NCBI RefSeq assembly: GCF_002843385.1
Contig: NZ_MVDE01000011.1
Location: forward strand, 62,001 to 126,000
Direction: 5' to 3'
DNA: 64,000 nt
Source of the DNA: Labilibaculum manganireducens
GTDB taxonomy: Bacteria; Bacteroidota; Bacteroidia; Bacteroidales; Marinifilaceae
The translations under genes were made by a program, and so were the position numbers. Below, piece by piece: positions 28,862-48,617 of this stretch (position 1 is its first letter; every line of letters begins with the position of its first letter). The notes beneath the pieces were generated by a model that saw only the letters and a program-made list of their open reading frames with translations, searched no databases and had not been told where the DNA came from.

Positions 28862-29495
28862 AAATTGTCCATACCCTAAGTTACTACAATTGAGTGAGAA
28901 ACTTATACAAAATGGGGAAGTCTGATTGCTGTGAATGCCATTTTAAAATCAACATCAAGCCTGTGCAGATAAAGATTGCTTTAAATACTAAGCCAAATAA
29001 TCGCCAGAACTTACAAACAGGTTGGCATATAAGCCTATCGCTGCAAGTTGCTATCCTTAAGTTAAGATCATGGGAATCTGGCTAGTCAATTTGTTTTTAC
29101 TGATGCTGTTTTCTATATATTAGGCTGCTTAGATTCCATTCGGGGATTATAAACTTATTGGCAGATGGCTTATATTGTTATGCGATTCATTAATATAGCT
29201 TTACAGATAATCTAAATTCATTATCGGATCATTTAAATAAGAAAGCAGATCATTAATATTACTATACCGATCAAATAAATAATATAGAAGATTGGATCTT
29301 TATGCTGTTATAGTTGATCGGATTGGCTTTAAATATGATCTGAATTGTAATTTTTATGATTTGACTCTATCTAAAGATGATCTGGCAGATGATTTAGCTG
29401 AGCGGATTGATAATGTATGTAATCTTTACACTTAAAAACAGATGAGTTTGCTGACTGTTTTAGCCATAATGCCGGAAAATCACAACAGGGCAAAC
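28862..29495. other. 634-bp intergenic stretch, GATC-rich, possibly decayed sequence
   Basis: No convincing gene is seen. A 63-codon frame at 28894-29085 has unlikely composition. At 29283-29435 (plus) there is a stop-free stretch of 50 codons ending in a protein-like segment (DLTLSKDDLADDLAERIDN) without an ATG; it could be a gene remnant. Seven GATC tetramers fall within 29221-29400, far more than expected for this base composition. No hairpin terminator or promoter box was assigned. Confidence 0.4.
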
Positions 29496-45577: not shown

Positions 45578-46381
45578 ATGTTGCTTTCAATTCTTTGGGA
45601 TATCGATCCGGAAATATTTAAAATCGGCCCTATCGCTGTCCGTTGGTACGGATTATTATTCGCATTAGGATTTTTGTTAGGATATTATCTGGTAGAAAAA
45701 ATGTTTAAAAAAGATGGTATTAAACTGGAATGGCTTGATAAATTATTCCTGTATACCATGATTGCAACTGTTGTAGGTGCTCGTTTGGGACATGTGTTTT
45801 TCTACGGATGGGAATTTTATTCACAACACCCTGCCGAAATAATTAAAATTTGGCGGGGAGGATTGGCATCTCACGGTGCTACAATTGGAATTCTTGTTGC
45901 TTTATGGTTTTATTCTAAAAAAGTGAGCAGAAAATCAATGCTTTGGATATTGGATTACGTGGTAATTCCGGTTGCTTTGGCAGGATGTTTTATTCGTTTG
46001 GGAAATTTGATGAATTCAGAAATTATTGGAACTCAAACTCATTCTGACTGGGGATTTCAATTCATCAGAGCTTCTATTTATGAGCCAAAAGCACCACGAC
46101 ACCCAGCACAATTATACGAAGCAATTTGTTATTTGATTTCCTTTGGTGTTCTGTCATTTATGTATTGGAAAACCAATGCAAAACAATACAGCGGAAGATT
46201 ATTCGGAGCTTTTTTTGTAATGATTTTTACAGCTCGTTTCTTTATCGAATTTATTAAGGAAAATCAGGAAGCTTTTGAGCAGGGAATGTTGTTAAATATG
46301 GGACAGTTACTAAGCATTCCGTTTGTTTTAATCGGGTTGTTCTTTCTGATTCGATCGTATAGAATTGAACCGATGAAGTAA
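45578..46381 (+). CDS. lgt: Prolipoprotein diacylglyceryl transferase
   Basis: An inner-membrane enzyme of 267 residues with about seven helices. It moves diacylglycerol from phosphatidylglycerol to the lipobox cysteine of preprolipoproteins. Signatures: VRWYGLLFALGFLLGYYL, VGARLGHVFFYGWEFY, WRGGLASHGATIGILVAL, GCFIRLGNLMNSEIIG (catalytic Arg region) and RHPAQLYEAICYL, with the late FTARFFIEFIKENQ. It lies 97 bases after secA across a hairpin. The two genes both serve export, but appear to be separate transcripts. Confidence 0.96.
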   Translation: MLLSILWDIDPEIFKIGPIAVRWYGLLFALGFLLGYYLVEKMFKKDGIKLEWLDKLFLYTMIATVVGARLGHVFFYGWEFYSQHPAEIIKIWRGGLASHGATIGILVALWFYSKKVSRKSMLWILDYVVIPVALAGCFIRLGNLMNSEIIGTQTHSDWGFQFIRASIYEPKAPRHPAQLYEAICYLISFGVLSFMYWKTNAKQYSGRLFGAFFVMIFTARFFIEFIKENQEAFEQGMLLNMGQLLSIPFVLIGLFFLIRSYRIEPMK

Positions 46382-46400: not shown

Positions 46401-46431
46401 AAGCCGAATCTTTTCCGATTCGGCTTTTTTA
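46401..46431 (+). terminator. Terminator after lgt
   Basis: AAGCCGAATC (46401-46410) pairs with GATTCGGCTT (46417-46426), followed by a T tract. Confidence 0.9.
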
Positions 46432-46479: not shown

Positions 46480-46797
46480 TCAAAAAAAGCCTTCCTAATG
46501 ATGGGAAAGCACTTCAAACCTTCCAAAGCCTGTTCCCAAATGTGGGAAAGTACTTAAAATCACCCAAAACCCATTTCCCAATTGCGGGAGAGTAGTTTGG
46601 AGCACTCAAAGCATGTTGCCCTATTGTGGGAGAGTAGTTCGAATCATCCAAAGCGTACTCCAAATTGTGGGAAAGTACTTTGAACCAATCCATACCTGAT
46701 TCCCGATTGCGGGCGTACACTTCGAAACATTCAAGGTAAATTCCCCAATATGGGAACGCTTTTAAAACCATCCAAACAGGATTCCCTGTCATAAAAA
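46480..46797. repeat. Tandem array of seven to eight 41/42-bp hairpin units
   Basis: A GGG core recurs at 46503, 46544, 46586, 46628, 46669, 46711 and 46752, giving spacings of 41, 42, 42, 41, 42 and 41; a broken eighth unit ends near 46797. In most units TTCCC (or a close variant) sits 5-6 bases before the GGG and is complementary to GGGAA, so each unit can fold as a short hairpin. Between units are AGTACTT-like and CCAAAG-like linkers. Units are diverged, not identical, while stem complementarity is largely kept. The mixed 41/42 spacing breaks any single reading frame. It lies between the lgt terminator and the 3' end of the convergent MutS-like gene. Confidence 0.85.
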
Positions 46798-46808: not shown

Positions 46809-48617
46809 TTATGCTTCCTTCAATATTTCCAAATCAATCCCCATTTTCTTCATTAAAATAGGAGCGTTAAAGGTTTTGCAAAATCCTTTTTGCACTTTGT
46901 AGTCAAAATAAAGCTGATCACCATCAATTTTAATATCGAAGAACCGGTTTTCAACCTGCCCGGGTAATTCTTCTTCCAGTATCGATAGTTCCAAATCATG
47001 TGTTGCCACCATCGCAACTGCATCGTGTTTCACCAGTTGCTTAATCAATGCTCTCGAACCTGTATGCTTGTCTTTCGAATTGGTTCCTCTCAAAATTTCA
47101 TCCAATAGTAATAATGTCTTCTCTTTTCGATTTACTTTTTCTATCACCTGCTGAATTCTCTTTAGTTCTGCATAAAAAGAAGATTCATTTTCTTCTATCG
47201 AATCTTTAATTCTCATAGAAGTGTTGATTTCCACATTTGAAACCGTCATTTCCTGAGCACAAACCGGAGCTCCTGCCAATGCCATCACAACATTCACTCC
47301 AACGGTTCGCAAAAAAGTACTTTTTCCGGCCATATTCGATCCCGTTACAATATGCACCGTTCCAGGGCCATTTAGCTGATAGTCGTTATTTACTCTTGCT
47401 TTCTCATCAATCAAGGGATGACCGGCTTCCTTTACATCCAACTCAAAGTGTTTGTCTGAAATTTTAGGAAAAGCCCATTCTTCATGGTTAAAACTTAAAT
47501 TAGCTAAGCTGGAAATGGCTTCAATCTCACTGATTGCATCAAACCACTTTTCAATTTCAGTACCATAATTTTGTTTCCACTTGTCGATACGAAATAAAAT
47601 GTGCAATTCATAGAAAAACAGCAGATTAAGCAATATTTGAACCATTACATTTAATCGTTGATCTAATAATTCAATAAGCTTGCTTAGTTGCTGTATTTTT
47701 TTTGATGTTAACCGATCATTACTACCCAACTTGCTCTTTAGTTCATTTAATTTTTCAGAATTCCAGTTCTCTTTTTCGAACTGCTCAATAATATAGGAGT
47801 AGGTTTTGAGCATTTCCCCTCTTTTTGAAGTTTGTTCATGAGCTCTGCTCACTTTCCTGAAGTTATAGTAGTGAATTCCAATACTAGCCAATATCATTAT
47901 TGTAATAGGAGCTTGTGAGCCGATAAAAGAATATACCAAGGCTCCCAACGAAAGCAAAGGCATAATTGTAACAGCGATTTGTAATACTTTCTTTCCATGA
48001 AAAGGAGAGGGCTTTTTACCCCATTCAATTACAAAACCGGGGTCATCATTTTTTAGATTGTTCGCAAAGCCATATTGAACGATATTTTGTCTCCAATCAA
48101 TCTTTTTTGCCAATTCTTTAACCGCTTCCTGTCTTTTGCTGATCTCTTGATTAGGTGATGGCTTTTCGAGCCAGCTGGCAAGAGTATTATTACCTGTTTT
48201 AGTAACGCTCCGGTTGATTAATTGAAAAAGAGAATGTTGTCCAAATATGTCCAGATCTGATGCATAGGAATGATTCGGTTTCAGATACTCTTCGCCATCA
48301 TAAAAAAGAGTACTATGGCGTGTTTGCAAGCAATTAATTTCATTCTCGTTAATTTCGATCAAGGCGTGCAGCCTTTTTATATTTTTACTGTTTCGATTGT
48401 ATTTTCTTACAAAATAGATCAGCGAGAATACTAATGTGATAGCCACAGCATTTGCAATTAATGCAGAATAGGATAGAAAACCATAAAAAAACACGAATGC
48501 TCCAATTGCAGAAAAAAGACGCAAAAACGAGAGGTTTCGATTCTGTTTTTGAAGAACACTTGTTTGCTTTTTAAATGCATGTATTCGATCGGTGTAAAAG
48601 GATAGTTTTTGATTCAT
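46809..48617 (-). CDS. Membrane-anchored MutS-like ATPase
   Basis: 602 residues. The C-terminal third is a MutS-type ABC ATPase: IVTGSNMAGKSTFLRTVG (Walker A, about 426-440), ENESSFYAELKRIQQVI (signature region), TLLLLDEILRGTNSKDK (Walker B, about 502) and VATHDLELSILEE. The centre keeps a core/lever-like helical region. The N-terminus has two hydrophobic segments (about 29-70), and another pair lies near 208-250; no mismatch-recognition domain (no Phe-x-Glu) is present. This is not the mismatch-repair MutS. Membrane-bound MutS-like proteins occur in Bacteroidota without a known job. Start ATG 48617. Confidence 0.85.
   Translation of the reverse strand: MNQKLSFYTDRIHAFKKQTSVLQKQNRNLSFLRLFSAIGAFVFFYGFLSYSALIANAVAITLVFSLIYFVRKYNRNSKNIKRLHALIEINENEINCLQTRHSTLFYDGEEYLKPNHSYASDLDIFGQHSLFQLINRSVTKTGNNTLASWLEKPSPNQEISKRQEAVKELAKKIDWRQNIVQYGFANNLKNDDPGFVIEWGKKPSPFHGKKVLQIAVTIMPLLSLGALVYSFIGSQAPITIMILASIGIHYYNFRKVSRAHEQTSKRGEMLKTYSYIIEQFEKENWNSEKLNELKSKLGSNDRLTSKKIQQLSKLIELLDQRLNVMVQILLNLLFFYELHILFRIDKWKQNYGTEIEKWFDAISEIEAISSLANLSFNHEEWAFPKISDKHFELDVKEAGHPLIDEKARVNNDYQLNGPGTVHIVTGSNMAGKSTFLRTVGVNVVMALAGAPVCAQEMTVSNVEINTSMRIKDSIEENESSFYAELKRIQQVIEKVNRKEKTLLLLDEILRGTNSKDKHTGSRALIKQLVKHDAVAMVATHDLELSILEEELPGQVENRFFDIKIDGDQLYFDYKVQKGFCKTFNAPILMKKMGIDLEILKEA

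Follow-up and report, generated by a model that had tools for sequence, protein, structure and literature searches.

The window analysed here is a stretch of 64,000 nucleotides from Labilibaculum manganireducens, in which a tandem array of short units separates a gene predicted as lgt from the 3′ end of a convergent gene for a MutS-like protein (Table 1). The name lgt comes from a preliminary description of this DNA, made from the sequence alone; an orthologue is present in 9/9 genomes of the genus. The same description had placed the array between the lgt terminator and the 3′ end of the convergent gene, and this is where we found it. The terminator is kept in four aligned relatives; if it works, the array would lie outside the lgt transcript. 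A 92-codon ORF on the minus strand crosses the array.

Table 1. Positions in the window of the array, its units and the flanking features.
Feature	Position	Strand	Remarks
lgt (prolipoprotein diacylglyceryl transferase)	45578..46381	+	267-aa ORF; name from the preliminary description
Predicted intrinsic terminator of lgt	46402..46430	+	hairpin GAAGCCGAATC..GATTCGGCTT, then T run; read from the sequence
Array of seven 41/42-bp units and a degenerate end unit	46484..46797	.	mean period 41.5 bp, about four helical turns
Unit 1 central dyad	46494..46507	.	GGG core 46503
Unit 2 central dyad	46535..46548	.	GGG core 46544
Unit 3 central dyad	46577..46590	.	GGG core 46586
Unit 4 central dyad	46619..46632	.	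GGG core 46628
Unit 5 central dyad	46660..46673	.	GGG core 46669
Unit 6 central dyad	46702..46715	.	GGG core 46711
Unit 7 central dyad	46743..46756	.	GGG core 46752
Convergent gene, MutS domains III and V	46809..48617	-	602 aa; stop at 46809, 3′ end borders the array

Seven to eight units had been described. The cores are spaced by exactly 41, 42, 42, 41, 42 and 41 bases, as had been read; there are seven of them, and the end unit, at approximately 46783–46792, has no GGG. In most units a CCC-type arm stands ahead of the GGG, also as described, and a repeat protein had correctly been argued against, since the 41-bp steps change the reading frame. Unaided, TRF called positions 46502–46713 with a period of 42 and a score of 157, the top of 18 rows in the window. 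The self-match of the array peaks at lag 42 with 0.514, and none of 500 shuffles exceeded 0.372. Two dyads, TTCCC-N6-GGGAA and CTTTGAA-N3-TTCAAAG, are set half a unit apart in the majority unit; 12/14 pairs match in the two-dyad test against 8.3 when permuted, and 0/2000 permutations scored as high. The self-complementarity of the whole TRF unit was not significant (0.54 vs 0.47, p 0.16).

Arrays of the same period beside two protein families

The preliminary description had proposed a search of the genome and its relatives, and this search returned similar arrays both at other loci and in relatives. Within its own genome, the lgt array is matched best on contig 16 (L004/L060), by an array immediately 3′ of an unannotated gene that encodes a protein of 224 residues; the alignment gives 54.4 bits (E 8e-11), and reversed controls reached at most 29.7 bits. 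We use MATL as our own label for the family of this protein. Two relatives (G004 and G001) have orthologues of the contig-16 gene, likewise followed by an array of this type. In 40 genomes we found 15 full-length MATL copies and 3 fragments, distributed over 10 genomes and three genera. The named relatives (15 loci) all belong to Labilibaculum, Marinifilum or another Marinifilaceae genome, and among 395 genomes of the phylum MATL was found in the own genome only. Every full-length copy has an array with a best lag of 41 or 42 on its 3′ side (15/15), and none has one on its 5′ side (0/15). The array sequences vary between MATL subfamilies, and the majority unit of the contig-16 array fails the two-dyad test (p 0.38).

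The contig-16 MATL protein has no match in Pfam to E 10 or in NCBIfam to E 0.01. Its predicted model (pLDDT 86.3, pTM 0.71) is a bundle with two helices of approximately 59 residues. A chemoreceptor or sensor domain was considered for this fold and rejected, the matches (McpS, E 0.053; McpZ, Z 9.7) being within the chance range for long helical bundles. The model matched nothing among viral proteins at E 0.001, and the sequence gave only weak rows against solved structures, the best (E 0.0086) being a designed protein. The median pI is 7.8 for MATL and 5.7 for DUF6261, the second family described below, that is, about neutral or acidic. The near-neutral charge of MATL does not favour simple DNA binding.

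DUF6261 genes were suspected to lie near such repeats as well, and their loci were tested for it. In Pfam, DUF6261 forms a separate family; it has nine copies in the own genome and is present in 3/148 genomes of a phylum sample and in 20/59 relatives, the own genome being counted in both. The search returned 43 loci, of which the 41 with enough 5′ sequence were used. An array with a best lag of 41/42 was found on the 5′ side of 33/41 loci and on the 3′ side of 0/41; the gene-linked loci are partly orthologous and so not independent, and the thresholds of the lag statistic (0.14–0.17) were chosen during the work. Eight of the 41 loci have no array at threshold, and four of these eight still peak, below threshold, at 41 or 42. 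The same statistic applied to random tiles was positive for 11/920 in the own genome, 1/460 in a genome with one DUF6261 copy (G014) and 0/460 in a genome with none (G060). The 33 positive loci come from nine genera and extend into another class of the phylum (G128). One DUF6261 protein was searched in phage and plasmid collections and had no match in either. Aligned by hhalign, MATL and DUF6261 match collinearly but weakly (E 0.007, probability 5.5%), and the two families may be distant relatives. A short distance downstream of one DUF6261 gene there is a DUF805b RNA motif (RF02914; L110, 2156–2189). In the titles and abstract openings of the open-licence literature, preprints excluded, nothing was found on these 41/42-bp arrays, and DUF6261 is mentioned there in one paper, which concerns another subject.

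Unlinked arrays and conservation of the lgt array

The sequences of most array types are dissimilar between gene copies, and the period is constant. Among the types, the contig-32 and contig-60 DUF6261 arrays are alike (40.5 bits); the other pairs are not. With unit lengths of 39–44 bp requested, TRF made a call in 33/65 loci (DUF6261 20/34, MATL 7/22, unlinked 6/9), and all 33 calls were 41 or 42. A sample of 864 kb of the own genome, comprising 40 stretches and the window (15% of the genome), gave 17 matches at 14 places for lags 41 and 42 together; other lags gave 0–3, except lag 48 with 5. Two control genomes (400 kb each) had no excess, with 1 and 0 matches at lags 41/42. Of the 14 places, L142 and L152 are coding, L146 is a MATL remnant with its array, L148 overlaps a small ORF in part, and about ten are intergenic and unlinked. 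Scaled up from the 864-kb sample, this suggests, as a rough estimate, some tens of unlinked arrays genome-wide.

The array in the window is an unlinked array of this kind and not a gene-linked locus: neither a DUF6261 nor a MATL gene was matched by tblastn in the window. When 12 unlinked arrays (including the coding L142) were compared with the gene-linked arrays of the own genome, three matched clearly and a fourth barely. L136 matches the contig-2 DUF6261 array with 136 bits and L135 the contig-8 DUF6261 array with 45.1 bits; the match of L127 to the contig-60 DUF6261 array is 34.3 bits over 35 bp, where reversed controls reach at most 29.7. Searches of the own genome gave further unlinked arrays of the same type for 4/4 types searched. 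These are the lgt array for the contig-16 type, C1:264161 for the contig-2 type, C4:97018–97423 for the contig-8 type and, for the contig-6 type, C2:236451 and C33:6100, besides a remnant on contig 3. The lgt array is thus an unlinked, or orphan, member of a class of arrays found repeatedly in its own genome and in relatives.

Several other repeats were noted. Window positions 29100–29480 contain a second, weaker intergenic array with a best lag of 21 bp (0.429 vs a shuffled maximum of 0.385) that also matches at lag 42; it may be a further member of the unlinked class. An array on contig 1 (L133 12820–13221; G000) of 41 bp × 9.8, not self-complementary by test and with no linked gene seen, looks recently duplicated. 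An unlinked array related to the lgt type lies behind a MatE transporter gene (L018 1340–1660; G001 contig 686). A strong 40–41-bp period (0.58) occurs near a second, diverged lgt-like gene (L072 2604; G003 contig 10). Three places have a strong 46-bp period (L140 4341, L151 11522, L159 2840) and may represent a separate repeat class.

In a DNA search of 59 genomes, the lgt array was found in five genomes of the genus including its own, the other four being 83–94% identical. In 5/5 genomes that possess it, the array has the same place behind lgt and seven units. In two relatives (L010 and L011) two cores are short of one G, and a 2-bp deletion in one unit (L009) is the sole gap in four comparisons. 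Homogenisation of the units is not seen: the difference is 0.107 between orthologous units and 0.421 between units of the same array, and their comparison found no recent duplication. A hypervariable locus, one of the options in the preliminary description, does not agree with these figures, and the proposed comparison of copy number showed no difference in unit number among the five genomes. One genome (G006) lacks the array altogether. We ruled out a hypervariable minisatellite on the constant seven units and the lack of homogenisation.

In the comparison with the most distant relative (G004), the fraction of differing sites is 0.169 for the lgt array, 0.333 for the third positions of lgt and 0.362 for those of the MutS-like gene. 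For three nearer species the corresponding values are 0.059–0.088, 0.086–0.090 and 0.153–0.264. In 4/4 comparisons, fewer sites differ in the 102-bp spacer that holds the terminator (0.030–0.144) than in the array. Constraint on the array is thus possible but, from these alignments, not proven. Had stems been kept while linkers drifted, as first supposed, arm positions should vary less; they do (10/70 vs 54/217 other positions), at a borderline p of 0.07.

The lgt array may be a functionless relic, left over from a gene–array locus whose gene was lost, although we consider this unlikely. A locus on contig 3 (L146 6800–7110; G000 contig 3, 186774–187307) illustrates such a course: approximately the last 70 residues are all that is left of MATL there, and the adjacent array is intact and shares 89% identity with that of contig 6, so an array can outlive its gene. 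In G006, approximately 35 bases stand in place of the lgt array and the lgt protein is 99% identical, and three genomes (G002, G007, G008) keep the array without a MATL gene of the contig-16 type. The closer conservation of the neighbouring spacer also fits a relic. Against it stand the divergence from G004, half that of lgt third positions, with one 2-bp gap in four comparisons, and the lack of remnants: a tblastn search of the window and 13 unlinked stretches, two of which cover one place, gave 0 matches to MATL or DUF6261 at E 0.01 and recovered three positive controls.

Duplex DNA, RNA or control region

The preliminary description had considered a processed RNA or an mRNA-end buffer. If the array were transcribed, for example as a long 3′ end of the MutS-like mRNA, its hairpins in series could serve as a substrate for processing, as a protein-binding element or as protection for the mRNA end. 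Most of 12 arrays indeed fold better than dinucleotide shuffles, with z down to −9.8 (the exception is L113, −0.2), and a hairpin with a T run that resembles a unit follows the gene at contig-16-type MATL loci. Read on the minus strand, the window array also has a T run at its far end. The folding is, however, similar on both strands in 10/12 arrays (L227 and L231 differ by approximately 4 z units); the lgt array has z of −3.1 and −3.7 on its two strands. On a selected RNA strand, G.U pairs should far outnumber A.C mismatches. In 12 arrays of the lgt/MATL type there are 103 G.T and 129 A.C mismatches. At 34 DUF6261 loci the counts are 336 and 249, where composition alone predicts 307.8 and 277.2, so that the G.U excess across the arrays is at most slight.

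Stem pairing over 28 segments of six arrays at three places was 65.6% of cells compared with 65.2% when shuffled, and 189/500 shuffles reached this value. Pairs in which both partners changed are slightly more frequent (14 vs 10.9, 23/500 shuffles; covariation score 39/500), with low power, and the covariation is not convincing. Together with the G.T counts and the similar folding of both strands, the pairing result does not bear out the earlier suggestion of selection on hairpin structure. At the curated gathering score, Rfam has 0 matches in the window and none within the arrays of 20 related loci, the single match among these loci falling outside the array. The two strands of the lgt array do score differently with model R1 (plus 66.8 vs minus 26.7 bits); only arrays of the contig-16 type score about equally on both. 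On balance, a structured RNA seems rather improbable to us. The constant feature is the pitch of approximately four helical turns, which suggests sites on one face of double-stranded DNA.

Alternatively, the arrays could regulate the linked gene as operators or enhancer-like elements, the unlinked ones serving neighbours such as lgt or the MutS-like gene. DUF6261 arrays do stand on the 5′ side, and the estimated gap from array to start codon is 60–202 bp at 15 of 29 loci, 0–39 at 10 and 222–410 at 4. Promoter-like sites occur within 150 bp of the DUF6261 start codon at 5/29 loci, and the shuffled mean is 1.15 with a maximum of 5; this is suggestive only of promoters ahead of these genes. MATL arrays, on the other hand, lie behind the gene, the window array is flanked by the 3′ ends of both neighbours, an orientation that would place neither promoter nearby, and seven sites over 300 bp exceed the usual need of an operator. 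We therefore hold a control region to be improbable. That the arrays are a mutational by-product of intergenic tandem duplication, with the 41/42 period due to chance or to a bias of the duplication machinery, is very improbable: the units are direct repeats and some arrays, such as that on contig 1, look recently duplicated, but the two control genomes show no 41/42 excess, the lgt array shows no recent duplication and the side-specific link to two protein families would be left unexplained.

A proposed protein–DNA system

The explanation we prefer, to which we give an even chance, is that the arrays are phased sites on double-stranded DNA bound by a protein. Each unit would be a putative binding site, often dyad-symmetric, for a protein dimer, and the linked gene would probably encode this binder or a protein that partners it. 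Four helical turns per unit, and two between dyads, would bring every site to the same side of the helix, where bound dimers could touch and build a regular complex. Unlinked arrays would then offer this protein additional places to bind, or be what remains of former gene-linked copies; the lgt array may be a remote partner site or a relic. A protein-binding array had been listed among the options in the preliminary description, which had no view of the common 41/42-bp period or of the link to two protein families; binding itself we infer. The dyads are not universal among the arrays, which counts against the dimer-site view. Their centres are approximately 21 bp apart in 5/11 arrays examined (L086, L079, L104, L109, L115) and irregularly spaced in four (L060, L110, L119, L018), and the TRF units are significantly self-complementary in 16/33 cases overall and in 0/6 unlinked ones. 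That the lgt array is no better conserved than the spacer and that model R1 is strand-asymmetric on it made us hold phased protein sites slightly less likely, at even odds, and a relic slightly more likely, though still unlikely.

Known arrays offer several comparisons. The sopC (parS-F) site of plasmid F consists of twelve 43-bp tandem repeats with 16-bp inverted repeats that are bound by a dimer of ParB-F (SopB) (PMC6238139, PMC9178275), and it is at most a model for how the proposed system would work. The repeat length is nearly that of the present arrays, and the gene for the sopC binder lies on the same replicon as sopC. Unlike sopC, the arrays described here occur on chromosomal contigs, in many places and with different sequences, and the linked proteins are MATL, with no known relatives, or DUF6261, the side of the gene being set by the family. 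No ParA or ParB was found beside the window array, where the neighbouring ORFs are lgt and the MutS-like gene, and we therefore did not file it as a sopC-type centromere. REP/BIME elements with RAYT transposases (REPtrons; PMC3733652) are palindromic intergenic units at many genome places, some beside a dedicated gene. The present arrays are likewise intergenic, in many places and partly gene-linked. They differ in their head-to-tail 41/42-bp period and in sequences that mostly differ between arrays rather than forming one high-copy family. MATL matches no HUH tyrosine transposase family in profile searches, and DUF6261 belongs to a Pfam family of its own. By eye, GTAG occurs in 2/7 units of the lgt array.

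In the iteron arrays of plasmid replication origins, direct repeats are spaced by approximately two helical turns, so that proteins align on one face. No Rep protein or origin was noticed for the arrays here, which have dyads in about half of the tested units and many loci per genome. Minisatellites (VNTR) share the diverged, intergenic tandem repeats, and differ in that the lgt array has a constant unit number and units that are not homogenised. No known kind that was considered fits them in its defining features, and their novelty is by exclusion.

Taken together, the data suggest an undescribed protein–DNA system in which arrays of 41–42 bp units often accompany two uncharacterised protein families. 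More tentatively, and rather unlikely on present grounds, this could be a chromosomal system of Bacteroidota in which each paralogous helical DUF6261 or MATL protein has a private centromere-like array and a few remote partners, bridged by one-sided complexes of four turns per step, with the lgt array as one such remote partner. If true, private-array bridging would be a new mode of organising or marking a bacterial chromosome.

DUF6261 and MATL gain a testable context from this work, namely an array of near-fixed pitch beside most or all examined copies, on one side only. Should the proteins not bind the arrays, the side-specific link to the genes would still need explaining. If they do bind, the 41/42-bp pitch makes strong predictions for footprints and structures, and a repeat class passed over by annotation would be a system that regulates genes or organises the chromosome in a major phylum. 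With binding proven, the arrays would join the dedicated protein-site arrays.
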